IMG/VR virus record: IMGVR_UViG_3300030104_000068 | Location: 1 to 40,990 of that record | DNA length: 40,990 nucleotides | From: a virus | Strand: one strand, 5' to 3' | Shown: positions 10,188 to 25,373 of the stretch, piece by piece | Position numbering within the stretch: position 1 is the first letter of the stretch | How the letters are laid out: each line of letters starts with the position of its first letter | The notes under the pieces: model-generated | What the model was told of the DNA's origin: nothing | What the model saw: the letters and a program-made list of their open reading frames with translations, nothing else | Databases searched by the model: none | Program-made: the position numbers and the translations under genes

Positions 10188-10200
10188 TGATTATATATCA
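10188..10200 (-). promoter_or_regulatory. Repeated 13-nt motif TGATATATAATCA (copy 1)
   Basis: On the minus strand this reads TGATATATAATCA and contains a perfect TATAAT. It overlaps the stop of the cyclase gene and lies 74 bases before the 35-residue gene that starts the last cluster. The same 13 bases occur at 25389-25401, and with one change at 29575-29587. A promoter -10 region or operator (TGAT and ATCA are inverted) is inferred. Confidence 0.45.
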
Positions 10201-11934
10201 AAACGTGTATATTTTTAAAGGTTTTTCTTTACCTTTTACTTTTATAGGTTTTAATCGTTTTAAGGAAATACCACAATATTTCTTAGTTTCTTCTCCAATA
10301 AGTATGTTTACACCTGCTTCTTTAGTAGCAGACTCTAGCCTAGCCGCCGTATTAACCGCATCCCCAATAGCCGAATAATCGAATCTAGTGTCACTGCCCA
10401 TGTTGCCTATCACAGCTTCTCCAGTATTAACCCCAACCCCGATAGCTATTCCAATGTTTGCTTTATTTATATTTTCTTGTATTTCTTTAGCACATTGAAC
10501 CGCTAGTTCTTCATGTTGTTCTAAATCCATAGGTGCATTAAAGATAGCCATCATTGCGTCACCAATGAATTTATCTACCATGCCTCCTCTTTTTTGTACA
10601 CACTCAACTTGAACAGTTAATGCTTTATTCATTATTTCAGTAACTTCTTCAGGAGGTAACGTTTCAGAAAGAGCTGTAAATCCTCTAACGTCTGTGAACA
10701 AGAAAGTACATCTTCTTTTTTCTCCACCTAGTTTTAATAAATCAGGGTCTTTTTGTAAACGTTTTACCTGTTTAGGATCTAAGTAATGTTCAAACTGTTT
10801 TTTAATCTGTTGTCTTAATTTATATTGTTCTCTAAACCTTAAATAAAAAGCTATAGCTCCTGTTATAAATTGTGAGACTAACGACCAAGTTATATCTATA
10901 AGGATTCCTGTAGTTATTGTGTAATAACCGTAGAAGCCCGTTAAAGCCATCGTAATTAAAGCTAGAGAAATACCCCAAGTTATCCCTAAATAGCTTATGA
11001 AAGCCCATACGAGGCTTACAGAAACTAAATATATAAGAAGTTCTAAAGCTAAAGAATAATCAGGTATGTAAGGACTATCTTGTATTAGGATAGATTCTGC
11101 AAGAGCCGTTTGTATTTTATGCGGCTCAACAAGTCCAATAGGCGTGGCTATCTGTGGCATAACCCCATTAGCTGTTACACCTACTATAACAAATTTACCG
11201 TTTACTTCCATTTCTTGTAAATCTGTTTGTTGTGTGTTAACCCATGAAATCCATTTACGACCTAAACTATCTGTTTTAACAGGCGGTATTCCACGTATCG
11301 CTATTTCCTGTATACCGTTTTCGTTAGTTTTGATAATATATGTTTTTATACCAAACAAAGCTTTATATATTTGTGTACCAAAACTAGGTATCCATTCGTT
11401 ATTAGGAGTTTTTACTAACAAAGGCATTCTTCTTACAAGTAAATCTACGTCGGTGGGAGCTATAGCTAATCCCTGCAGAACATCATCATATGATGTGTGA
11501 TTAGCTTTCACTCCCGAACTGTTAATACCTCCTGTGTTTTCACCTAAAACTACTGTTCCTGGACTAGCAGGATAAATGCCTTTACCGTCTTCAAACATTG
11601 CAAGAACTGCAGGAGCGTAGCCCAGTGACCTAGCAAAATCTTTATCTCCATCTAACCTATCCGCTTGCGGAAAACTAATTACCCAACCAACACCTATAGC
11701 ACCTTTACTTAATAATTCTATTTGGATATCAGCTAATCTTGTTCTAGGTAAAGGATATCCACCTTCACGTTCTATATCTTCTTCTGTAATGTTAAGTATT
11801 ACAAAATTACCACTGGGCTCTTGTTGTTTAATTAAACTATCAAAAGTTTTTAATTTAAGTATTTCTGTTGGCGTGCTTTGAAACACCAAAGGTAAACTAA
11901 GTAATATTAATATAGGTAATAAAAGTTTATTCAC
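10198..11934 (-). CDS. CHASE2-domain membrane adenylate cyclase (class III)
   Basis: Predicted to make cAMP from ATP in the cytoplasm in response to an extracytoplasmic signal. Order: an N-terminal helix (3-19), a CHASE2 sensory domain outside the membrane (about 25-285), three membrane helices (about 296-366), a short linker (YKLRQQIKKQFEHYLDP) and a catalytic domain (about 400-575). Every class III catalytic residue is visible: metal Asp415 (FTDVRGFT) and Asp459 (FIGDAMMAIF), substrate Lys455, Ser521 at the Asp/Thr purine-recognition position, and Asn528 and Arg532 (GDAVNTAARLES). The Lys plus Ser/Thr pair favours ATP over GTP. Start is GTG at 11934, overlapping the FecR-protein stop by 8 bases. 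FecR and CHASE2-cyclase genes often neighbour each other in bacteria, as I recall. Such an intact sensor enzyme in a phage late region is unusual. Confidence 0.95.
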   Translation of the reverse strand: MNKLLLPILILLSLPLVFQSTPTEILKLKTFDSLIKQQEPSGNFVILNITEEDIEREGGYPLPRTRLADIQIELLSKGAIGVGWVISFPQADRLDGDKDFARSLGYAPAVLAMFEDGKGIYPASPGTVVLGENTGGINSSGVKANHTSYDDVLQGLAIAPTDVDLLVRRMPLLVKTPNNEWIPSFGTQIYKALFGIKTYIIKTNENGIQEIAIRGIPPVKTDSLGRKWISWVNTQQTDLQEMEVNGKFVIVGVTANGVMPQIATPIGLVEPHKIQTALAESILIQDSPYIPDYSLALELLIYLVSVSLVWAFISYLGITWGISLALITMALTGFYGYYTITTGILIDITWSLVSQFITGAIAFYLRFREQYKLRQQIKKQFEHYLDPKQVKRLQKDPDLLKLGGEKRRCTFLFTDVRGFTALSETLPPEEVTEIMNKALTVQVECVQKRGGMVDKFIGDAMMAIFNAPMDLEQHEELAVQCAKEIQENINKANIGIAIGVGVNTGEAVIGNMGSDTRFDYSAIGDAVNTAARLESATKEAGVNILIGEETKKYCGISLKRLKPIKVKGKEKPLKIYTF

Positions 11935-13045
11935 TTTGCGTTATGGTTATATTAGAATCTCCACCACCATTTATTTTTACTACATTACTAACTCCATCTT
12001 GAATAATAATAACTGTGTATGCTCCACCACTGTCTAAGTCTAATCTAACTGAATCATTTACTTTTCGTCTAAGACTAATCACATTACCTGTAACTAAGGT
12101 GGTTATTTGTGTGTCTGGGTCTTGTCCTATTTTAGTTCCGCTAAGAGTTATGCTGCCTGCATCTGCTAAAACGTCTTCATCTTCCGAAATCGCTAATGAG
12201 TCTAATATATTTAATAGATCTTCAAGAAAATTTACATCTAAATAATTTATATCTAATTCTGTAAACTCTAATTCATCTTCAGCAAAAAAGTCTTCATCTA
12301 AATAGTCTATATCAAGATCATTAAAATCTAATATGTTAGCTTTTGTATTACTCGCTACTTCTTCTGTTTGAGTGATTTCTTCTTTAGGAGGCGTAACAAT
12401 TAACATGTTGTCTATAATGTCTAAAGTTAAATCTAATACAACAGGTTTACTAGGTTTGGATTCAAAAACACTTACTGTTGTGGCTTGATAAGGTTTATTA
12501 AGTAATACGCTACCCATAGCAGTAACCACTTCTATTTCCCCGCTAGACAACCCAAAAGAATCGGGGAGTAAAATAATAAGTGAACGTCCTAGCTCGTCAA
12601 CGGTAGCCGTGAAATCTGTCCCACGAATCGCTATGTTTGCTGTAGGTGTTTTTAAAGATATATTTTGTTTATCTATTTTGTTTAAATTACCCGTAATAAA
12701 TCGAGCTGTACCGAGTCCAAACGTAAGTGCCATTTTAGCTTTAGAAGGATCGGGATCATAGATATATTCATCTATTAAAAGTTGTGAGTGTTCAGTTAGT
12801 TTAACTGTAGAATCATCAAGAAAAGTTATAGCCATTCTACCGTTAGTAGTAATAGCTTCATCATTGCTTTGAATAGCAAACTTTAAAGTAGCGTCTAAAG
12901 GCTCATCTCTTACTATTTGCGCTGAACCATTTAGTTCAGATATATCCCCAATATCAGCAGCTTGTGCTTGTACCTTGGTCGTTTTGAATAATACAAACAG
13001 TAGAAGCAGCGTTCCCGCCAACCGATATAACTTTAAGCCAGTCAT
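11927..13045 (-). CDS. Secreted FecR-domain protein with curlin-like C-terminus
   Basis: Residues 1-28 are a signal peptide (LAGTLLLLFVLF core, cut after VQAQA). A FecR-type domain spans about 31-190, with the hallmark TPTANIAIRGTDF ending near residue 145. It is followed by an acidic linker with two related segments (LDIDYLDEDFF, LDINYLDVNFLED) and a C-terminal end (about 340-372) of curlin-like strands: VIIIQDGVSNVVKINGGG then DSNITITQ. In bacteria this periplasmic domain binds or senses ligands or partners; here it sits between the curlin-like gene and the CHASE2 cyclase, so it may link the secreted fibre to the sensor. That is inference. The start lies 92 bases inside the curlin-like gene, and the signal peptide requires it. 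No strong ribosome site is seen. Confidence 0.9.
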   Translation of the reverse strand: MTGLKLYRLAGTLLLLFVLFKTTKVQAQAADIGDISELNGSAQIVRDEPLDATLKFAIQSNDEAITTNGRMAITFLDDSTVKLTEHSQLLIDEYIYDPDPSKAKMALTFGLGTARFITGNLNKIDKQNISLKTPTANIAIRGTDFTATVDELGRSLIILLPDSFGLSSGEIEVVTAMGSVLLNKPYQATTVSVFESKPSKPVVLDLTLDIIDNMLIVTPPKEEITQTEEVASNTKANILDFNDLDIDYLDEDFFAEDELEFTELDINYLDVNFLEDLLNILDSLAISEDEDVLADAGSITLSGTKIGQDPDTQITTLVTGNVISLRRKVNDSVRLDLDSGGAYTVIIIQDGVSNVVKINGGGDSNITITQSE

Positions 13046-13685
13046 TATCTTGTGTACTCAGTTGTTGAATATTAAATGTTCTTTGTCCACCTGTGTGATC
13101 TAGCCAAAAATATCCGCCTGCTGAAGCTGTTACTCCTGTTCCAGTATAATTAACTGTATTATCAGAACCATCTATATCCATATAGTTAGTTGCACCATCA
13201 ATATTAATATTAGATACAACTGTGTTATTAGATCCTTGAATAATCCAATCTAAATCTAAAGTTCCTGCTAATGCAGTAGTACCTTGATTTAAAGTAAATG
13301 TATTACTTGATCCAGTAACAGCTATATTTTGATTAGAACTGTCAGCACCAAAGGTGTTACTTGGGTCAACTTGTATTGTAAAAGTATTGCTATTACCAGT
13401 GAATTCATAAAAACCAGTAAAGCTATCTGCCCATATATCACCAAGAAACTTGTTAGTGTTTCCAATCATATTAATATCAATAGTCATACTTGTACCATCA
13501 ATATCAAAAGCTGTAAGACTGCCTGCTGTAGATTGCAAGCCACCTATAATGTTAGAGATACCTAGTTGTTCTATATCTAAATTAAGTGTAGTACCGCTTT
13601 GGTCTAAATATATTTCGTTATCAGCCGCGAATGTTGGCAATGCACTCAGCATCACAATCAGGCTCATTAATTTTAAGTTCTTCAT
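12954..13685 (-). CDS. Secreted curlin-like repeat protein
   Basis: A clear signal peptide (MKNLKLMSLIVMLSALPTFA) precedes about 220 residues of beta-strand repeats. Recurrent units are G-(S/N)-x-NT-(F/V) followed by alternating hydrophobic residues: TGNSNTFTIQ, TGSSNTFTLNQ, QGSNNTVVSN, DGSDNTVNYTG, with opening DQSGTTLNLDIEQLGISN. CsgA and CsgB show similar Gln/Asn ladder repeats of about 20-22 residues, though these are more irregular. Two Cys near the end (STVCIIQNDQGTSTSC) could form a disulfide. It directly follows CsgG, with a 65-base overlap, so it is the obvious candidate substrate of the channel. Identity as an amyloid subunit is inferred from repeats and neighbours; an accessory curli factor is the alternative. 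Confidence 0.8.
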   Translation of the reverse strand: MKNLKLMSLIVMLSALPTFAADNEIYLDQSGTTLNLDIEQLGISNIIGGLQSTAGSLTAFDIDGTSMTIDINMIGNTNKFLGDIWADSFTGFYEFTGNSNTFTIQVDPSNTFGADSSNQNIAVTGSSNTFTLNQGTTALAGTLDLDWIIQGSNNTVVSNINIDGATNYMDIDGSDNTVNYTGTGVTASAGGYFWLDHTGGQRTFNIQQLSTQDNDWLKVISVGGNAASTVCIIQNDQGTSTSC

Positions 13686-14493
13686 GTTTCCAAAATCCTC
13701 TATCGTAACCGATAGTAATAAGTTCTAAAACTGCCCCTTCGATAGCTTTCATTAGGGCTATCGTCGTAGACTCGTTACGCGAGTTTCCTAACTCGACTTC
13801 TACAAGTTCGGTTCCCATTTCAATGAATCTGAAAATGTCTTCTGACTTACCATAACTGAATATGGTTTTTTGGCTTAATACTTCTATAAGTATTTCACCA
13901 GTTGCTACAGATACCATCCTCAAACTTACTGTAATGTTATCCTCTCTGTATTGAATACTAGTACCTATACCGAGATACCGTGCACCGATGCCACCAGTGG
14001 TTAAGTTACTATCATAGCTTATAACTGCACCTTCAAGCAACACTCCTGCAAATAACAAAGGAGCAAGCTGTTTCTTTTTTTCCTCATCTGTGGCAAATTG
14101 CTCTCTAGCTGATCTTATAAGCTGACGTTCTTTAGTTAAATTATCTAAACCAATTCTTTCTACAACTCTAAAAAATTCACCATTACTTGCGTGTTTAAGT
14201 GCTCTAATTAATAAAGTATGGGGTGCTTGTGTGACTGCTGTAGAAAATAAAGCAAACTCACTATTACTTTTTCTTTGTCCTGTTTGATCTGTAAATGATG
14301 TAGGATATACAGCAACTATGGGCTGAATCATAGGTTTATTTACTAAAGCTAATTCTTTAGAATGTAGTTCTTCTATTTTAACTATATCGTGAGCTTTAAA
14401 TCTTTGTTCATAAGTATCTTCAAACTGGTCAAAGATAGAACAACTAGAAAGTGAAGCTACCAATAGGAATCGTAATATGAGTGATTGTTCCAT
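13621..14493 (-). CDS. csgG: CsgG-family curli secretion channel lipoprotein
   Basis: CsgG forms a nonameric outer-membrane pore that exports unfolded curli subunits. The signal peptide ends in a lipobox, LSSC, with lipidated Cys18. The mature protein matches E. coli CsgG along its length: IVAVYPTSFTDQTGQRK, FSTAVTQAPHTLLIRALK, FFRVVERIGLDNLTKERQ, GVLLEGAVISYDSN, then TTGGIGARYLGIGTS, VSLRMVSVATGEIL, SQKTIFSY, FRFIEMGTELVEVELGNSRNE and IGYDRGFW. Its 290 residues are close to the 277 of E. coli CsgG. The stretch TGGIGARYLG is the constriction and barrel-entry region of the family. It starts with ATG inside the CsgF gene (50-base overlap) after GAGG. It is highly conserved and intact, so very probably functional. 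Whether it exports curlin-like protein or acts as an exit pore for the phage is open. Confidence 0.96.
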   Translation of the reverse strand: MEQSLILRFLLVASLSSCSIFDQFEDTYEQRFKAHDIVKIEELHSKELALVNKPMIQPIVAVYPTSFTDQTGQRKSNSEFALFSTAVTQAPHTLLIRALKHASNGEFFRVVERIGLDNLTKERQLIRSAREQFATDEEKKKQLAPLLFAGVLLEGAVISYDSNLTTGGIGARYLGIGTSIQYREDNITVSLRMVSVATGEILIEVLSQKTIFSYGKSEDIFRFIEMGTELVEVELGNSRNESTTIALMKAIEGAVLELITIGYDRGFWKHEELKINEPDCDAECIANIRG

Positions 14494-14944
14494 CAGCCTC
14501 GGTTATTTTAAGGGTTAAATAAGTTCCATCTGAACTATATTCTATCGTATTACCTTCTAAGGTTATAGTTCCGCTATCTTGTGGAGTTTCTCCAAATAAG
14601 TTAGCTATAAGTTGTCTTGATAATTCAGCGTAGACTCTTGACTCAAAGTTACGAATAAATCTTTGTACTGTAGAATTTTCTTTATCTCTTTCTGCTTCTT
14701 CTATAGCAGCTTTAAGTTCATCTTTAATTGTTTGTCGTCTATTAAACTCTTGGTTTTCAATCGTAAGATAATGACTAGATGTATTAATGCCACTAAAAGA
14801 GGGTGATTTAAATTTATGCGTTATTTGATCAGCCCACAGATCTTGTCCAAAAATCCCTACTAATAAAATAACTCCAATAGTTACGGCTATACTAACCGTA
14901 GGTGATTTTTGAGAATTATTTAGTTTTTTCTTTTTTGTTGTCAT
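14444..14944 (-). CDS. csgF: CsgF-like curli assembly factor
   Basis: CsgF is an outer-membrane accessory factor that inserts its N-terminus into the CsgG pore and helps nucleate curli at the cell surface. Here a basic N-terminus and hydrophobic core (KKKKLNN, VSIAVTIGVILLVGIFG) form a signal peptide, probably cut near DLWA. The mature start THKFKSPSFSGINTSSHYL matches the conserved F-x-NPxFGGN-x2-NG-x2-LL region that occupies the channel. A middle helix (FIRNFESRVYAELSRQLIANLF) and a C-terminal beta part (NTIEYSSDGTYLTLKITEADG, HITIPIG) match the family layout. It lies directly before CsgG, overlapping it by 50 bases, the usual pairing. The canonical Asn-rich signature is degenerate, so identity rests on pattern plus neighbour. 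Confidence 0.88.
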   Translation of the reverse strand: MTTKKKKLNNSQKSPTVSIAVTIGVILLVGIFGQDLWADQITHKFKSPSFSGINTSSHYLTIENQEFNRRQTIKDELKAAIEEAERDKENSTVQRFIRNFESRVYAELSRQLIANLFGETPQDSGTITLEGNTIEYSSDGTYLTLKITEADGTITHITIPIGSFTF

Positions 14945-15185
14945 TATCTAATGCCTCCTGTTCTTTAAGTTCTAATACTGTGTTTACTTTTTGTTGTAGT
15001 CTTATCATGTCTTGGTCTAATAAACGTAATTGATCGGTTAGGCGTATTATAGTTTTCTTCATTTCACCTACAGCAGGATCTATGACTTTAGTTACCGTTT
15101 GCCAAACAAAATAAACGAAATAACCTAACCCAACTACCATTACTACAGGAAATCCAAACTCGGAAACTAGTTGGACTATGTCCAT
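14916..15185 (-). CDS. Small single-helix coiled-coil membrane protein (89 aa)
   Basis: One N-terminal membrane helix (about 12-31, FGFPVVMVVGLGYFVYFVW) is followed by a coiled coil (LTDQLRLLDQDMIRLQQKV) and a charged Lys-rich end. It is a visible paralogue of the protein before it: (E)(F/L)G(F/L)PV and then NxVLEL or SSALNL align. The layout resembles small holin-like or BhlA/UviB-type phage proteins. It overlaps csgF by 29 bases and is joined to its paralogue by TAATG. It could act in lysis or assist the neighbouring curli-type channel; the sequence does not decide. Confidence 0.75.
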   Translation of the reverse strand: MDIVQLVSEFGFPVVMVVGLGYFVYFVWQTVTKVIDPAVGEMKKTIIRLTDQLRLLDQDMIRLQQKVNTVLELKEQEALDNDNKKEKTK

Positions 15186-15481
15186 TAATCTCTCCTAGCG
15201 TCTATCTTTCCATCTTCTACAAAATTTTCTGCTCTAGCTATTCTATTTAAATCAGGTTTCAAATTTAAAGCACTTGAAACACTGGTATCTATTCGTATAA
15301 TATCGTTGTTCATTATAGAGGCTCTAGTAATTAACATTTTAGTAATGCCTTCAACGGTTTTTATATCATTAACTAATTGCCCCATAAGCTGTTTCATGAT
15401 TAAAAAGATGAAGTAAGCCATAATAAGTCCACCTGCCACAGGTAAACCAAGTTCAGCTATTAATGTAAAACTCTGTTCCAT
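15185..15481 (-). CDS. Small single-helix coiled-coil membrane protein, paralogue (98 aa)
   Basis: N-terminal membrane helix (about 10-31: LGLPVAGGLIMAYFIFLIM) and a helical C-terminal part (IKTVEGITKMLITRASIMNNDIIRI cut here into blocks VEGITKMLIT and NNDIIRIDTS) ending DGKIDARRD. It aligns over most of its length with the 89-residue protein that follows, so the pair arose by duplication. The start lies 22 bases inside the previous gene, and the stop forms TAATG with the next start. A holin or antiholin pair is one reading; no signature proves it. Confidence 0.75.
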   Translation of the reverse strand: MEQSFTLIAELGLPVAGGLIMAYFIFLIMKQLMGQLVNDIKTVEGITKMLITRASIMNNDIIRIDTSVSSALNLKPDLNRIARAENFVEDGKIDARRD

Positions 15482-15658: not shown

Positions 15659-16051
15659 CTATTCTTTATTAGCCTCACCTTTAAAAGACTTACTCGATCC
15701 AGAAGTGCCTGCGTATAAACCAAACCAAGCAGCACCTGCTCCTACTACTATTGATATTAATCCTGACTGTTCAAAAGTAGGTGACTCTAATGCCATAAAC
15801 CAAAATGTTGTGTAATACAAAAGATACATATAAATACTAAGAAAAGCTCTAGGAAATAATCTCCAAGAATCTACAGCTTGTGCTAAATGAATTACTTTTT
15901 GCCAAGGATTTACATTAGTTGTATCTTCTAAAGTTCTTATTTTATCTTTAAGTTCGCCAATTTCTTGAATCATAGCCATGAACTTATTAAGATCCATCTC
16001 TACTTCATTTCTATCCATATCGCCGCCAAATCTTCCGCTTCCATCATTCAT
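15659..16051 (-). CDS. Two-helix membrane protein, holin candidate (130 aa)
   Basis: A charged helical N-terminal third (MDLNKFMAMIQEIGELKDKI, likely coiled coil) precedes two membrane helices at about 66-88 (FPRAFLSIYMYLLYYTTFWF) and 97-114 (GLISIVVGAGAAWFGLYAG), then a small basic tail. Size and layout fit a class II-type phage holin, and it is near the lysozyme. An upstream ATG at 16066 exists, but the ATG at 16051 forms a TAATG overlap with the nuclease stop, the habit of this genome. Holin function is inferred; a structural membrane role is possible. Confidence 0.75.
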   Translation of the reverse strand: MNDGSGRFGGDMDRNEVEMDLNKFMAMIQEIGELKDKIRTLEDTTNVNPWQKVIHLAQAVDSWRLFPRAFLSIYMYLLYYTTFWFMALESPTFEQSGLISIVVGAGAAWFGLYAGTSGSSKSFKGEANKE

Positions 16052-16434
16052 TAGTATGCACCCCAAATTTTAGTTTTAGTCCCGCCATCATATTCAACTG
16101 CGTGACCTTCATCAATTAATATTTGACAAATATCTTTGCCATCTTTTGTGTACGGAATACCGAGAATACGACCGTACTTGCCTTTGCCTAAAGATTTTAT
16201 TTTAAGTTTACCTTCACAAAGTTCTTTTAATCGAGCCTTTGCAGCAAGACCAAGTTTCTTTTCTTCTAGGTCACGTGTTCTTGATTCTGGGGTATCTATT
16301 CCAGAAAGCCTTACTCGTTGTTTATGTAGTTTTACATCAAAACCTAAATCAAGACAACAATCAAAAGTGTCTCCATCTACTATTCTTTCTAATGTAGCGT
16401 TGTATACAAACGCATCTGGTGCTTTTTTAGCCAT
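16051..16434 (-). CDS. Staphylococcal-nuclease-like (thermonuclease) protein
   Basis: A single SNase domain fills all 127 residues. The key residues are present: metal-site Asp20 (RIVDGDTF) and Asp47, catalytic Arg42 and Glu50 (QRVRLSGIDTPES), and Arg89 (KGKYGRILG). The family cuts DNA and RNA with Ca2+. There is no signal peptide, so it would act inside the cell or in the virion unless released at lysis. It follows three tiny basic proteins and precedes the holin candidate. Possible jobs are host nucleic acid breakdown or DNA processing; which one is not evident. The start directly follows the previous stop. Confidence 0.93.
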   Translation of the reverse strand: MAKKAPDAFVYNATLERIVDGDTFDCCLDLGFDVKLHKQRVRLSGIDTPESRTRDLEEKKLGLAAKARLKELCEGKLKIKSLGKGKYGRILGIPYTKDGKDICQILIDEGHAVEYDGGTKTKIWGAY

Positions 16435-17015: not shown

Positions 17016-17462
17016 TTAGTCTCCTTGTTTTAATACTCTATCTTTCAATCTTATAGCTCTTGGACCTACTTGTATAGCCCAACGACTATCTAACATTTCA
17101 ACTGCGGCTTTATCCCATTTATGTTCTTCCATAGCACTTAAAAACTTTTTAAATTTTAATAACCTAGTTATACCTAAGTTAAAACACATATTAGCCATAA
17201 CTCTTTGTAAATCTTCTGGTAAATCTTTCCACCATGTCATATTTCTATCTAAATCATTTATAACATTTTGTATGTCTTTTTCGAAACATTCTTTTATTCT
17301 TTTTTCTGAAACAGGAGTTCCTATGTCTTTCCCATGTTCTGGATCAGATTTTAATACTAAATGACCTATTCCAAAAGTAGGGTAATCTAAATGATCAAGA
17401 TATATTTTATTAATACATCCTTCGTCAAATGTTAATTCTTCTCTAAGTTTATCTATGTTCAT
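17016..17462 (-). CDS. T4-type lysozyme (endolysin, GH24)
   Basis: Muramidase that cuts peptidoglycan for host lysis. The catalytic triad of T4 lysozyme is in place with the same spacing: Glu14 (TFDEGC), Asp23 (YLDHLDYP) and Thr29 (PTFGIGHLV). The C-terminal helical lobe is complete (NMTWWKDLPEDLQRVMANMC, FNLGITRLLKFKKF). At 148 residues it is near the T4 enzyme (164). The frame runs further upstream, but the ATG at 17462 follows AGGAGAGTAAGT and removes the overlap with the gene before. There is no signal or anchor helix, so it needs a holin; candidates lie at 14916-16051 and 19708-20045. Confidence 0.95.
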   Translation of the reverse strand: MNIDKLREELTFDEGCINKIYLDHLDYPTFGIGHLVLKSDPEHGKDIGTPVSEKRIKECFEKDIQNVINDLDRNMTWWKDLPEDLQRVMANMCFNLGITRLLKFKKFLSAMEEHKWDKAAVEMLDSRWAIQVGPRAIRLKDRVLKQGD

Positions 17463-17464
17463 AC

Positions 17465-17806
17465 TTACTCTCCTAATATTATTGTTGTTGAACCACCTGT
17501 AGAAATTGAGACATTTCCTAATGCTGTAACCCCCTCTACTCCTTTTTCGGAACCTTGATAGATATCTACCCATTGTTCTCCTGTCCATAATTGTAGCTGT
17601 TGTGTGGATAAATTCCAAATAACATCGCCTTTATTGAATTGGTTTATGTTTCTTTGTGTTTCATTAACATTTATTGTCGCTCCAATATCTACCCGACCTA
17701 GACTTAATTCTAAAATCCTTACTAAACGATTAAACAACAAAGCTGCAGTAACTGAAGTAACAGGCGAAACAGCGTAAGGCAGTTTCGTTTCTAATAGTTT
17801 AGCCAT
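17465..17806 (-). CDS. Putative tail-associated protein (113 aa)
   Basis: The N-terminal half is helical (LLFNRLVRILELSLGRVDIG). The second half contains GDVIWNLSTQQLQLWTGEQW, an aromatic beta motif typical of small phage tail or fibre-associated proteins that bind sugar or form knobs. It starts in a TAATG overlap with the gp10-like gene and precedes the lysozyme. Function is not established. Confidence 0.75.
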   Translation of the reverse strand: MAKLLETKLPYAVSPVTSVTAALLFNRLVRILELSLGRVDIGATINVNETQRNINQFNKGDVIWNLSTQQLQLWTGEQWVDIYQGSEKGVEGVTALGNVSISTGGSTTIILGE

Positions 17807-20642: not shown

Positions 20643-23600
20643 TTATTCTCCTTTTAGAGTTTTTAACTCTTGTTTTAATTCATCTACTTGCGTAGACAGT
20701 TCTTTTACTGCATTTATTAGATACCATTTTAAGTTATCAGGGTTTACAGTTTTTACTCCTGTTGTTTCTTCTTTAACAACATCAGGTAAAATTTCTTCTA
20801 TTTCTTGTGCTATAACTCCAAGTTGTATTCCATCAATATTAACAACAGCAGCTTTTGGATTTTCAAAATCTACTATTTCATCTTCAGTTCTATATTCAAA
20901 GTTTCTAACTTGTATCTTATTAATAGCTTCAAGACCTGTATTGTTATCTGCTATGTTCTTTTTAATTCTTCTATCAGAAGTTGTTGACCAGTCTGCTGAA
21001 TTATTACCTTGATAAACACCACCACTATTTGGATTAATAAATCCTGTATTAGCACCTTTACCAGTAGATGACGCACCAATTACAATAGTATTACTATGAC
21101 CGCTATTTGCTGTTACAGCACTAGTACCTACAACAACATTACTAACACCAGCTGCTATGTTGTTTCCTGCTGCATAACCTATACATACATTATCACCACC
21201 TGTAGTTATTGCACTACCTGCTGCATCGCCTAAAGCTGCACAAGCTGCGGCTGTTGTTAAAGCTCCTAAAGCATTTACACCTACAGCTGAATTAGATGCT
21301 CCTGTTGTACAAGCGTCTAATGTCTGTAAACCTACAGCAGTATTATTACCTGCTGTGGTGTTTGATAATAAAGCAGCATACCCTAAAGCTGTATTACTAG
21401 CTCCTGTAGTATTATCAAATAAACTTCTAAAACCTACAGCTGTGTTATTGTCTGCTGTAGTATTGTCTTGTAAAGCACCATGTCCTATAGCTACATGATT
21501 ATCACCTGTAGTGTTAGAAGATAAACTATCTACACCCATTGCTACATTTAAAGTACCTGTAGTGTTAGCTGATGCGGCATTTCTTCCTACAGCAGTATTT
21601 TCTGCTCCTGTAGTATTAGAATCTAAAGCTAAAGCACCTACAGCAGTATTTTGACTAGCTGTAGTGTTTAAATTTAAAGCATTATAACCTATAGATGTAT
21701 TATCTGATGCAGTAGTATTGTTATATAAAGATTGATAACCCAATGAGGTATTGTTAGCACCTGTGGTGTTTAGATTTGAAGCTAAATAACCCATAGCGGT
21801 ATTATTAGCACCAGTAGTAGTTTGTGCTAAACAAGCATAACCTACTGCGGTGTTATTACTTGCTGTTGTACTATTTTCTAGTGAAGTTCTACCGACTGCT
21901 GTATTAGCAAGACCTGTGGTATTTGCACTCATAGAACCATACCCAATCGCTGTATTTGAGTTTCCTGTAGTATTTGCATCTAGAGCTATAGAACCTACAG
22001 CAGTGTTTTGCGTACCTGTAGTGTTTGACATTAAAGCTTGAAAACCAAAACCACTATTATTAGAGGCAGTTGTATTAGTACCTAAAGAATTATGTCCAAA
22101 TGCTGCATTTTGGTCTCCTGTGGTATTAGAACCTAAAGAGTTATACCCAAGTGCATTATTATTAGAAGCTGTAGTATTTGATGTTAAAGATTGATAGCCG
22201 ATTGCAGTATTATTAGCACCTGTAGTGTTTTGTAATAAAGCATCTTTACCAACTGCTGTGCTGTTAGATGCTGTGGTATTAGCATATAAAGCAAAATCAC
22301 CAATACCTGTATTATATTGACCTGTAGTGTTTTGTTGTAATGAAGAATGACCAAAAGCCGAGTTTTGAGCACCTGTTGTATTTGCAAATAAAGCTTCATC
22401 CCCAACTGCCGTATTGTTTGAAGCAGTTGTATTAGTTTGTAAAGCTCCTCTGCCTACTCCTACATTACTAGCACCAGTTGTGTTTGCTGCTAAAGCAGAT
22501 TTACCAACTCCTACATTACTAGCACCTGTTGTATTTGCTGTTAAAGAGTTATGACCCATAGCAGTATTGTTTGCTCCTGTAGTGTTAGCATCAAGAGATT
22601 GAGCTCCAACTGCTGTATTACTAGCTCCTGTAGTGTTTACTTGCATAGATTTTCTACCTATGGCAACATTATTACCTGCGGTAGTATTTGCACTTAGTGC
22701 TAGATAGCCTAAAGCAGTATTATCACTACCTGTTGTGTTGGCATCAAGTGCATAAGCACCCATTGCTGTGTTTTCATCGCCTGTAGTATTAGCTCCTAAA
22801 GAATCATGACCCACAGCTACATTGTTAGATGCTGTAGTGTTTGCATCTAAAGAACCATAACCCACAGCTACATTGTTAGCACCTGTGGTGTTTAATCCTA
22901 ACGCTGCTCTACCAATAGCAGTATTATTACTTGCAGTAGTATTAGCGTCTAGTGCTGCATATCCTAATACTGTGTTAGCAGAACCTGTAGTGTTCTCACC
23001 TAAAGATTTAAAACCAACTGCTGTGTTTTCACCACCAGTTGTATTAGCATCTAATGTTTCAGCACCAACAGCAGTATTTGCCGCACCTGTAGTGTTTGCT
23101 GTTAAAGCAGATTTACCAACTGCGGTATTATTACTTGCGGTAGTGTTTGCATCTAATGCTAAACCACCTATGGCAACATTATTAGTACCTGTAGTGTTTT
23201 GTAACAAAGCTTCATAACCAACAGCGACATTGTACATATCAACATTTGAATCAGGTATAGTATAGTACAAAGTTTGATGTCCAATAGCTACGTTTCTATC
23301 ACCTACTGTATTAGTAAATAAAGCACTTGTACCCACTGCTGTATTAGTATTTCCAGTAGTGTTTGAACCCATCGAGGCATATCCAATAGCTACGTTTGAA
23401 TTAGCTGTAGTGTTTGCATCTAGTGCTAAACCACCGATTGCGGTGTTATAAGCACCTGTTGTGTTTGATGTTAAAACACTTCTACCAACTCCTGTGTTAT
23501 ATCCTGCACCTGTAGTACATGAGGCTAAAGCACTTGTACCCATTGCTGTATTTGCATCAGCAGTTGTATTTGCTAGTAAAGCAAGAGTACCGACAGCAGT

Positions 23601-25373
23601 GTTTCCTGTACCTGTAGTGTTTGCTGTTAAAGCTTGTGAACCAATAGCTACGTTATTATCTGCGGTAGTATTATCATCTAAAGCATTATATCCAATAGCT
23701 GTATTTGCAGCACCTGTAGTGTTAGCTCCTAAAGCATTATAACCAATTCCAGTATTGTTTGAAGCTGTGGTATTAGCGTCTAGTGTTACAGAACCAACTG
23801 CGGTGTTAAAAGCACCTGTTGTATTTGCTGATAAAGAATTGTAACCAATACCAACATTATTACTAGCTGTAGTGTTAGCGTCTAAAGCATAGTTACCGAT
23901 TCCAACATTTAAAGCTCCAGTTGAATTAGCATTTAAAGTGTTATATCCGATTGCTATATTATTATCAGCTGTTGTATTGGATGTAAGAGCTACTCTACCT
24001 ATTGCAATATTATAACTACCAGTAGTGTTACCACCTAGAGCATCATTACCCATAGCTACATTACTAGTTCCTGTAGTATTAGCGTCTAAAGTATCTAAAC
24101 CAACAGCAGTATTTTCAGCACCTGTAGTATTTGCTGCTAAAGAATCTTTACCGACTGCTGTATTATTTGATGCAGTTGTATTAGCAGTTAACGCATTTTG
24201 TCCCACAGCAGTGTTACTACCACCTGTTGTAAGCACAGTTAATGCTTTTCTTCCAATACCAGTATTATTATCACCACTTGTTAAATCATCAAAAACTTCA
24301 AAACCTAAACCTGTATTAGAACCTGCACTAGATAAAGTACCTGTACCTGCGTCTTGGCTTATAAGTAGGCTTTCACTAAAATTAGTAGCGTTAGATAATA
24401 TACCTGCACCATTGATTGTGCCTGTTACGTCTATACCTGAACTTGTTGTGGCTAGTTTATTGCTGTTATTGTAAGCTATTTCAACAGCTCCACCATTAGC
24501 TGCTGATATATAAGTTGCAGAAGCATCTGAGTTTTTTATTCTTAAATCATTACCTTGCAGACTTAGGTTACCTGTTCCTGCATCTACAATTCTACTATGA
24601 CTACCATCATGGTAAATCTGTAAATCTGAACCAGCTCCAAAGATGGCTTTTACATCGTCAGCAAAGGTTGCATTACCTGCGTGAGCTGTTGTAGATGCAA
24701 AGTCTACAGCTCCATCTATATCTACTACATCTAGGTTAGTAGTTCCGTCTACGTCTATATCGCCTGAGATGTCTAGTGAAGCCGCAGTAATAGAACTACT
24801 AAAAGTAGCTGCTGCTGCAAAAGTAGTGCCACCGCCATCTGCGATTGTTATAGCATCATCACCGTCTGAAAATTCTATAAGAGGTGTTTGTACTGAAGTT
24901 GAGGCTTCTATTAAAGGAGCTGTTACTGAAGTAGAAGCAGTAATGTTTCCTGTTAACTCTAAATCTGTAAAAAGATCGTAAACAACTCCACCAGAACCAC
25001 CACCATCAGTAGCTATTGCTTTTACTTGACCTGCGGCTATTGCAACATTAGCTCCACTACCTGCGGTAAATGTAAGAGTATAAGAAGTAGCGTTTTCTAT
25101 TATCCATACTTTAGAAACCGTATTAGGTAATAAAGTTACTGTACAGGCTTGTCCGCCTCCAGTAAGTTTAAGATACATCGATCTATCTGCATCAGATGCT
25201 CCGTCTGCGATAGTTATATTATCAGTAGAAGCATTGGCTATAGCTCTTGTGCCGTATCCTAAAGCTTCTCCAATTAACTCTAAATTTGTATTAGTTGTGT
25301 TGCCCCAAGTACCACTGGCATCACCTGTGCCCATTTCGTTTAGTCTTAGGTTATTTACGTATGTACTTGCCAT
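20643..25373 (-). CDS. Giant repeat tail fibre with S74 endosialidase-type chaperone
   Basis: 1,576 residues. The N-terminus (MASTYVNNLRLNEMGTGDAS) is a virion-attachment part, followed by beta-helix-like segments (ISGDIDVDGTTNLDVVDIDG, LQIYHDGSHSRIVDAG). From about residue 345 to 1440 it consists of some sixty 17-residue units such as TTASNNTAVGYNALDAN, a trimeric head-repeat style seen in adhesins and phage fibres. The end, about 1463-1576, is an intramolecular chaperone: TTSDRRIKKNIADNN supplies the Ser and Lys for self-cleavage, then IQLGVIAQEIEEILPD and a final coiled coil (VKELSTQVDELKQELKTLKG). The chaperone trims itself off after trimer folding. Likely the receptor-binding or surface-reaching fibre. 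The repeat array may vary by recombination. Confidence 0.95.
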   Translation of the reverse strand: MASTYVNNLRLNEMGTGDASGTWGNTTNTNLELIGEALGYGTRAIANASTDNITIADGASDADRSMYLKLTGGGQACTVTLLPNTVSKVWIIENATSYTLTFTAGSGANVAIAAGQVKAIATDGGGSGGVVYDLFTDLELTGNITASTSVTAPLIEASTSVQTPLIEFSDGDDAITIADGGGTTFAAAATFSSSITAASLDISGDIDVDGTTNLDVVDIDGAVDFASTTAHAGNATFADDVKAIFGAGSDLQIYHDGSHSRIVDAGTGNLSLQGNDLRIKNSDASATYISAANGGAVEIAYNNSNKLATTSSGIDVTGTINGAGILSNATNFSESLLISQDAGTGTLSSAGSNTGLGFEVFDDLTSGDNNTGIGRKALTVLTTGGSNTAVGQNALTANTTASNNTAVGKDSLAANTTGAENTAVGLDTLDANTTGTSNVAMGNDALGGNTTGSYNIAIGRVALTSNTTADNNIAIGYNTLNANSTGALNVGIGNYALDANTTASNNVGIGYNSLSANTTGAFNTAVGSVTLDANTTASNNTGIGYNALGANTTGAANTAIGYNALDDNTTADNNVAIGSQALTANTTGTGNTAVGTLALLANTTADANTAMGTSALASCTTGAGYNTGVGRSVLTSNTTGAYNTAIGGLALDANTTANSNVAIGYASMGSNTTGNTNTAVGTSALFTNTVGDRNVAIGHQTLYYTIPDSNVDMYNVAVGYEALLQNTTGTNNVAIGGLALDANTTASNNTAVGKSALTANTTGAANTAVGAETLDANTTGGENTAVGFKSLGENTTGSANTVLGYAALDANTTASNNTAIGRAALGLNTTGANNVAVGYGSLDANTTASNNVAVGHDSLGANTTGDENTAMGAYALDANTTGSDNTALGYLALSANTTAGNNVAIGRKSMQVNTTGASNTAVGAQSLDANTTGANNTAMGHNSLTANTTGASNVGVGKSALAANTTGASNVGVGRGALQTNTTASNNTAVGDEALFANTTGAQNSAFGHSSLQQNTTGQYNTGIGDFALYANTTASNSTAVGKDALLQNTTGANNTAIGYQSLTSNTTASNNNALGYNSLGSNTTGDQNAAFGHNSLGTNTTASNNSGFGFQALMSNTTGTQNTAVGSIALDANTTGNSNTAIGYGSMSANTTGLANTAVGRTSLENSTTASNNTAVGYACLAQTTTGANNTAMGYLASNLNTTGANNTSLGYQSLYNNTTASDNTSIGYNALNLNTTASQNTAVGALALDSNTTGAENTAVGRNAASANTTGTLNVAMGVDSLSSNTTGDNHVAIGHGALQDNTTADNNTAVGFRSLFDNTTGASNTALGYAALLSNTTAGNNTAVGLQTLDACTTGASNSAVGVNALGALTTAAACAALGDAAGSAITTGGDNVCIGYAAGNNIAAGVSNVVVGTSAVTANSGHSNTIVIGASSTGKGANTGFINPNSGGVYQGNNSADWSTTSDRRIKKNIADNNTGLEAINKIQVRNFEYRTEDEIVDFENPKAAVVNIDGIQLGVIAQEIEEILPDVVKEETTGVKTVNPDNLKWYLINAVKELSTQVDELKQELKTLKGE
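21060..24310 (-). repeat. 51-bp coding repeat array in the fibre gene
   Basis: About sixty tandem 51-base units coding NTAVGxxxLxANTT-type 17-residue repeats. Units are degenerate at DNA level, but short blocks recur. The edges given are approximate. Variation in unit number between related phages is expected, and assembly errors in this stretch are possible. Confidence 0.85.

Follow-up and report, generated by a model that had tools for sequence, protein, structure and literature searches.

A CHASE2 adenylate cyclase in the curli-FecR cassette of an HTVC023P-type phage, with relatives beside type I secretion genes

Curli secretion genes linked to a FecR-domain gene and an adenylate cyclase are already known from phages as a module: Wittmers et al. 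2022 described it in HTVC023P-type phages and in myovirus pelagiphages, together with FecR, a "histidine kinase" and an adenylate cyclase, and assigned it an alphaproteobacterial origin (PMC9599517). SAR11 bacteria are reported there to be without curli, and since the cyclase is missing from some of the published modules, curli export does not depend on it (PMC9599517). CsgF and CsgG are also found in pelagimyophages, where a role in sibling capture was proposed (PMC7029224), and the paper on phage Melnitz interprets CsgGF as a lysis-timing pore and states that fibre genes are absent (PMC9004378); contrary to that paper, two curlin repeat proteins are annotated in the deposited Melnitz record. 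In HTVC008M, the cyclase is already annotated. Among bacteria, Campylobacterota have gene clusters in which a CHASE2 cyclase is accompanied by a FecR outer-membrane protein (PMC9239204), and in S. meliloti cyaD1 (SMc02176) is numbered adjacent to the FecR gene SMc02177 (PMC5498481). Removal of CHASE2 from S. meliloti CyaD1 leads to constitutive cAMP production, and since smc02177 is dispensable for the perception of the plant signal (PMC5498481), FecR need not be the ligand. Signalling to CHASE2 cyclases from an outer-membrane protein is known for NsrA (PMC13001267).

The window, by which we mean the whole stretch of DNA that was analysed, is the IMG/VR record IMGVR_UViG_3300030104_000068, with a length of 40,990 nucleotides. 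A sequence-only reading of this DNA had considered a phage with its own cAMP source unusual, a view that we cannot share: at least 585 IMG/VR stretches encode relatives of the cyclase, the cultured phages HTVC008M and Melnitz have one, and a description of the module has been available since 2022 (PMC9599517). The window terminase is 57% identical to that of 023Pt_psg01, 58% identical to that of phage DSL-LC04, but over a shorter span, and 53% and 51% identical to those of HTVC027P and HTVC023P, respectively. Because these are the closest terminases, this marine phage is, as judged from the gene, of the HTVC023P type, and its hosts are probably SAR11 bacteria. The cyclase is the final gene of a same-strand cassette in which most genes overlap each other, and which reads, in order, two small membrane proteins, CsgF, CsgG, a curlin-like protein, a FecR-domain protein and the cyclase, as in the pelagiphage T8SS-FecR-AC gene order of HTVC023P-type phages. 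Phage genes lie on the cassette flanks, and the terminase, portal and capsid genes are found further along the window. The features are as follows.

10198-11934, minus strand: CHASE2 class III adenylate cyclase, 578 aa (Pfam, catalytic residues, AlphaFold2 and Foldseek)
11927-13045, minus strand: FecR-domain protein, probably periplasmic, 372 aa (Pfam FecR, 4.5e-10)
12954-13685, minus strand: curlin-like secreted beta-repeat protein, probable fibre subunit, 243 aa
13621-14493, minus strand: CsgG outer-membrane secretion pore (Pfam CsgG, 2.8e-47)
14444-14944, minus strand: CsgF (Pfam CsgF, 3e-14)
14916-15185, minus strand: small membrane protein A, 89 aa (phrog_18771, 4e-26)
15185-15481, minus strand: small membrane protein B, 98 aa (phrog_18771, 7e-22)
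16051-16434: SNase, upstream of the cassette
17016-17618: lysozyme, upstream of the cassette

Elsewhere in the window, positions 20643-25373 encode a protein of 1576 aa with dozens of near-identical repeats of the form NNTAVGxxALxxNTT and a distinct C-terminal region, which is probably a tail fibre.

The reading frame of the cyclase is uninterrupted, as had been stated from the sequence, starts with GTG, and overlaps with its start the end of the FecR gene. Pfam places CHASE2 at residues 12-303 (3e-23) and Guanylate_cyc at residues 407-575 (1.5e-20). All of the catalytic residues that had been named beforehand, Asp415, Asp459, Lys455, Ser521, Asn528 and Arg532, are present and conserved in the alignment: D415, K455, D459 and R532 are invariant across 155 viral sequences (82 in set 1 and 73 in set 2, with the window, HTVC008M and Melnitz among them) and 71 sequences taken from contigs of bacterial genomes, N528 is replaced in a single case, and position 521 is Ser or Thr in every sequence but one. 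The protein thus has the metal-binding Asp pair, the adenine-binding Lys and Ser/Thr and the transition-state Asn/Arg of class III adenylate cyclases; the combination of Lys455 with Ser/Thr521 is typical of the adenylate, and not the guanylate, cyclases of this class. The AlphaFold2 model (mean pLDDT 87.9) finds its best Foldseek match among solved class III cyclases in 6fht (E 1.9e-18), and superimposes on CyaB (3r5g) with a TM of about 0.8 across the catalytic domain. Of the architecture originally proposed, a full sensor with three membrane helices, the CHASE2 sensor stands and the helix count needs a small correction, since an N-terminal hydrophobic anchor (1-23) precedes the region 294-381; there are probably four membrane segments in all, the anchor plus the helical segments within 294-381 after the sensor. 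This predicted topology gives the domain order of a CHASE2 receptor cyclase, with anchor, CHASE2, membrane helices and output domain, and we are close to certain that the ORF is an intact cyclase inside the known curli-FecR-cyclase module.

Since 89 of the 190 alphaproteobacterial genomes encode a CHASE2 domain, which is thus common in this group, the gene might be suspected to come from a host, as one that was captured recently or is decaying, or else to be an artefact of assembly. The tree, a quick one in which some branches are long, places every sampled viral CHASE2 cyclase in one fully supported clade nested among alphaproteobacterial cyclases, with the window cyclase well inside the viral part and its nearest relatives viral. 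The dN/dS of the gene against four viral relatives is 0.12-0.16 (about 0.13), and purifying selection thus acts on it. A second assembly, the contig IMGVR 3300029787_000044 (57,922 bp), is collinear by blastn with window positions 20719-9692 at 99.1% identity; because this match spans both cassette borders, and the alignment then goes on in shorter pieces, the cassette does not stem from a chimeric assembly. Of the findings that had been named in advance as fatal to the original proposal, one, that the gene is a fragment acquired very recently from a host and bordered by breakpoints of the assembly, is therefore excluded by the tree and the second assembly, which rule out a stray host fragment and a chimera alike, and together with the selection on the gene they leave an origin as host debris or artefact with a negligible probability.

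Of the T8SS, the pore CsgG and CsgF are both recognized by Pfam in the window. In the curlin-like protein, the Curlin_rpt match is sub-threshold (E 0.36), and 18 of 28 homologues reach E < 1, all likewise sub-threshold (best 0.006). Its model is an all-beta repeat (pLDDT 82.6), for which a Foldseek search of the PDB returned weak matches, none significant, that support a curlin fold neither way; the equivalent genes in HTVC008M and Melnitz are annotated as curlin. Small membrane protein A consists of one hydrophobic segment and a coiled-coil-like helix, and B, which aligns with A and belongs to the same PHROG, is its tandem relative. The published module is preceded by a histidine kinase, whereas Pfam and PHROG profiles identify no kinase domain in either of these small proteins. 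This discrepancy may be a matter of annotation in the published module (PMC9599517) instead of a real difference, and we found no prior report of small proteins without a kinase domain at the "histidine kinase" position.

The FecR domain is matched in all 28 homologues of the window's FecR-domain protein, which has an N-terminal signal-peptide-like segment and in which no 19-residue segment reaches the hydropathy cut-off for a membrane helix. Its gene overlaps both neighbours, and no sigma-factor or TonB-receptor gene was recognized among the neighbouring ORFs. With the FecR anti-sigma regulators, which are transmembrane proteins accompanied by FecI and FecA, it thus has the FecR domain alone in common. 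The pairing with the cyclase is consistent: FecR lies directly upstream of the cyclase in 73 of the 74 set-1 loci with a usable flank, and every set-1 viral locus whose upstream sequence extends over 6.5 kb or more (28 of 28) has CsgG, FecR and the small membrane proteins. Across 190 alphaproteobacterial genomes, at least 22 of the 150 CHASE2 matches listed have a FecR domain within 2 kb, compared to about 0.3 expected, and none of the CsgG matches listed is a neighbour of these. Because FecR and CHASE2 are often adjacent in Alphaproteobacteria without curli, gene neighbourhood makes the FecR protein more likely to be the periplasmic partner of the cyclase than an iron regulator. This interpretation is apparently new, in that we found no prior report of it.

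The same clade of cyclases also occurs in a second type of cassette. Among 80 kept loci, the upstream genes of 42 cyclases could be typed, 33 as type I secretion and 9 as curli, and a further 14 cyclases have other or untyped genes upstream.

L088:2213-12395 (MAG contig): type I secretion cassette with CHASE2 cyclase; also in marine phage contigs L188, L198, L214 and L216
L214:8185-8946 and L216:8504-9313: ABC component without ATPase domain

The L088 cyclase is 34% identical to that of the window and has 302 relatives in the viral collection. In the type I cassette, the curli genes are replaced by OEP, an ABC membrane domain, HlyD and a FecR-cadherin or RTX adhesin, and the viral-clade cyclase, the FecR domain and mostly both small membrane proteins are retained, such that proteins of the A/B type accompany the cyclase in both kinds of cassette. 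The protein ahead of the exporter carries FecR, cadherin and sometimes RTX or serralysin-type C-terminal domains. The ABC component, of about 255-300 aa, has no ATPase domain encoded with it at the locus; the one clear match to an ABC ATPase elsewhere on a contig is in L216 (G195:8096-8557). Profiles for the T4 portal, Terminase_6N and Gp23 have no match in the type I contigs, Gp23 being matched nowhere, so that the contigs are putatively viral without a proven hallmark. What speaks for a viral status is that they belong to IMG/VR and encode matches to a tail-fibre connector PHROG and to an oxygenase PHROG, an exonuclease, and a protein that is otherwise almost exclusive to cyanophages. We found no prior report of the viral cyclase clade with a type I secretion cassette, and the open-access literature yielded no such cassette with a cyclase in phages.

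Several further loci show related arrangements. L172 and L235 each seem to contain a pair of cyclase genes that enclose curli genes, and L172 has type I secretion genes as well, upstream of the first cyclase. Five MAG contigs (L084, L085, L086, L089 and L090), labelled as Neomarinimicrobiota, Maricaulis, Flavobacteriaceae and Saprospirales, bear cassettes of the phage type and probably represent phage DNA that was binned wrongly. In two alphaproteobacterial genomes (L282, L285), the CHASE2 cyclase gene belongs to a type I secretion operon that also encodes a FecR-RTX adhesin. On a MAG contig labelled as Rickettsiales (L281:10857-12581), an HlyD fused to a cyclic-nucleotide-binding domain (PF00027, 2.5e-18) is encoded with a C39-ABC exporter on one side and a CHASE2 cyclase on the other, a fusion which suggests that cAMP could act on the exporter itself.

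Taken together, we propose, with a probability of roughly 0.5-0.55, that the membrane adenylate cyclase is the signalling arm of a phage fibre-secretion cassette and couples export to cAMP. CsgG and CsgF would export the curlin-like fibre, export would alter the periplasmic FecR-domain protein, and this protein would in turn signal to the CHASE2 domain what state export, or the pore, is in, upon which the cyclase would shift cAMP in the infected cell. In the least certain step, cAMP would act on a receptor of the host, which we propose because no phage-encoded cyclic-nucleotide-binding protein was found (PF00027 is matched in none of eleven phage records, the window included). Among the roles offered in the sequence-only reading, the sensing of the envelope or of the secreted fibre fits the gene order best. 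The presence of related cyclases beside a second, unrelated adhesin-secretion system suggests that the cyclase reports on the export of surface fibres. One could also speculate, at somewhat less than even odds, that in marine phages the FecR reporter, the CHASE2 cyclase and the two small proteins constitute a portable export-sensing unit, which can be combined with either a curli or a type I exporter and which links fibre assembly at the surface of the infected cell to cAMP. Phages of abundant ocean bacteria appear to install both fibre secretion and a sensor-linked second messenger in their hosts. If the cyclase follows two kinds of secretion, cAMP would be tied to fibre export and not to curli itself, and a list of auxiliary genes would become a testable mechanism, with FecR as a sensor partner rather than an iron regulator.

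The intact active site and the absence of a phage-encoded receptor in the window and the ten phage records would also suit a general takeover of the host, in which cAMP reprogrammes transcription or metabolism through a Crp-type regulator and the curli neighbourhood is simply an inherited bacterial operon; the CHASE2 cyclases of S. meliloti indeed work through the Crp-family protein Clr (PMC5498481). Passive inheritance does not, however, predict that the linkage to secretion and FecR is kept in two cassette types and in varied gene orders, and we consider this explanation unlikely. Slightly less probable again is a role in the timing of lysis, in which CsgG/CsgF would serve as a pinholin or gated pore and the time would be set by the cyclase together with the two small holin-like proteins; for the CsgGF of Melnitz, such a pore has been proposed (PMC9004378). 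The lysozyme gene is nearby, and protein A has a weak match to the holin phrog_4898 (E 0.0012), but proteins of the A/B type are also found in the type I secretion cassette, and the presence of a curlin-like secreted substrate goes against the premise of that proposal (PMC9004378). That cAMP sets off or suppresses a cyclic-nucleotide response against phages, the abortive role once suggested for this gene, gained no supporting evidence; all that speaks for it is the cyclic-nucleotide synthesis expected of the domain, and with no cyclic-nucleotide receptor in the phage records searched and a membrane sensor within a secretion cassette not suggestive of such a role, it is very improbable.

Compared with known systems, the window is closest to the pelagiphage T8SS module (PMC9599517), with which it shares the small membrane genes, csgF, csgG, curlin, fecR and cyclase in equal order. 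It differs in having one curlin gene, where a second copy is frequent in the published module, and in the genes at the histidine kinase position, which have no kinase domain; the word CHASE is absent from the main text of that paper. HTVC008M and Melnitz, both T4-like myoviruses with cyclases 31-35% identical to that of the window, likewise have csgF, csgG, curlin, a FecR-type gene and then the cyclase, but with an extra gene between FecR and cyclase, which in Melnitz is a curlin. The clustering of a CHASE2 cyclase with a FecR-domain gene is shared with Campylobacterota and with S. meliloti cyaD1 (PMC9239204, PMC5498481), although these bacterial clusters are without curli genes, those of Campylobacterota add a phosphodiesterase and a TPR protein, and S. 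meliloti has in Clr a known Crp-type receptor. The type I cassettes (L188, L198, L214, L216 and L088), finally, differ from the window in their OEP, HlyD, ATPase-less ABC membrane domain and adhesin in place of curli, but have in common with it the cyclase clade, the FecR domain and mostly the small proteins.
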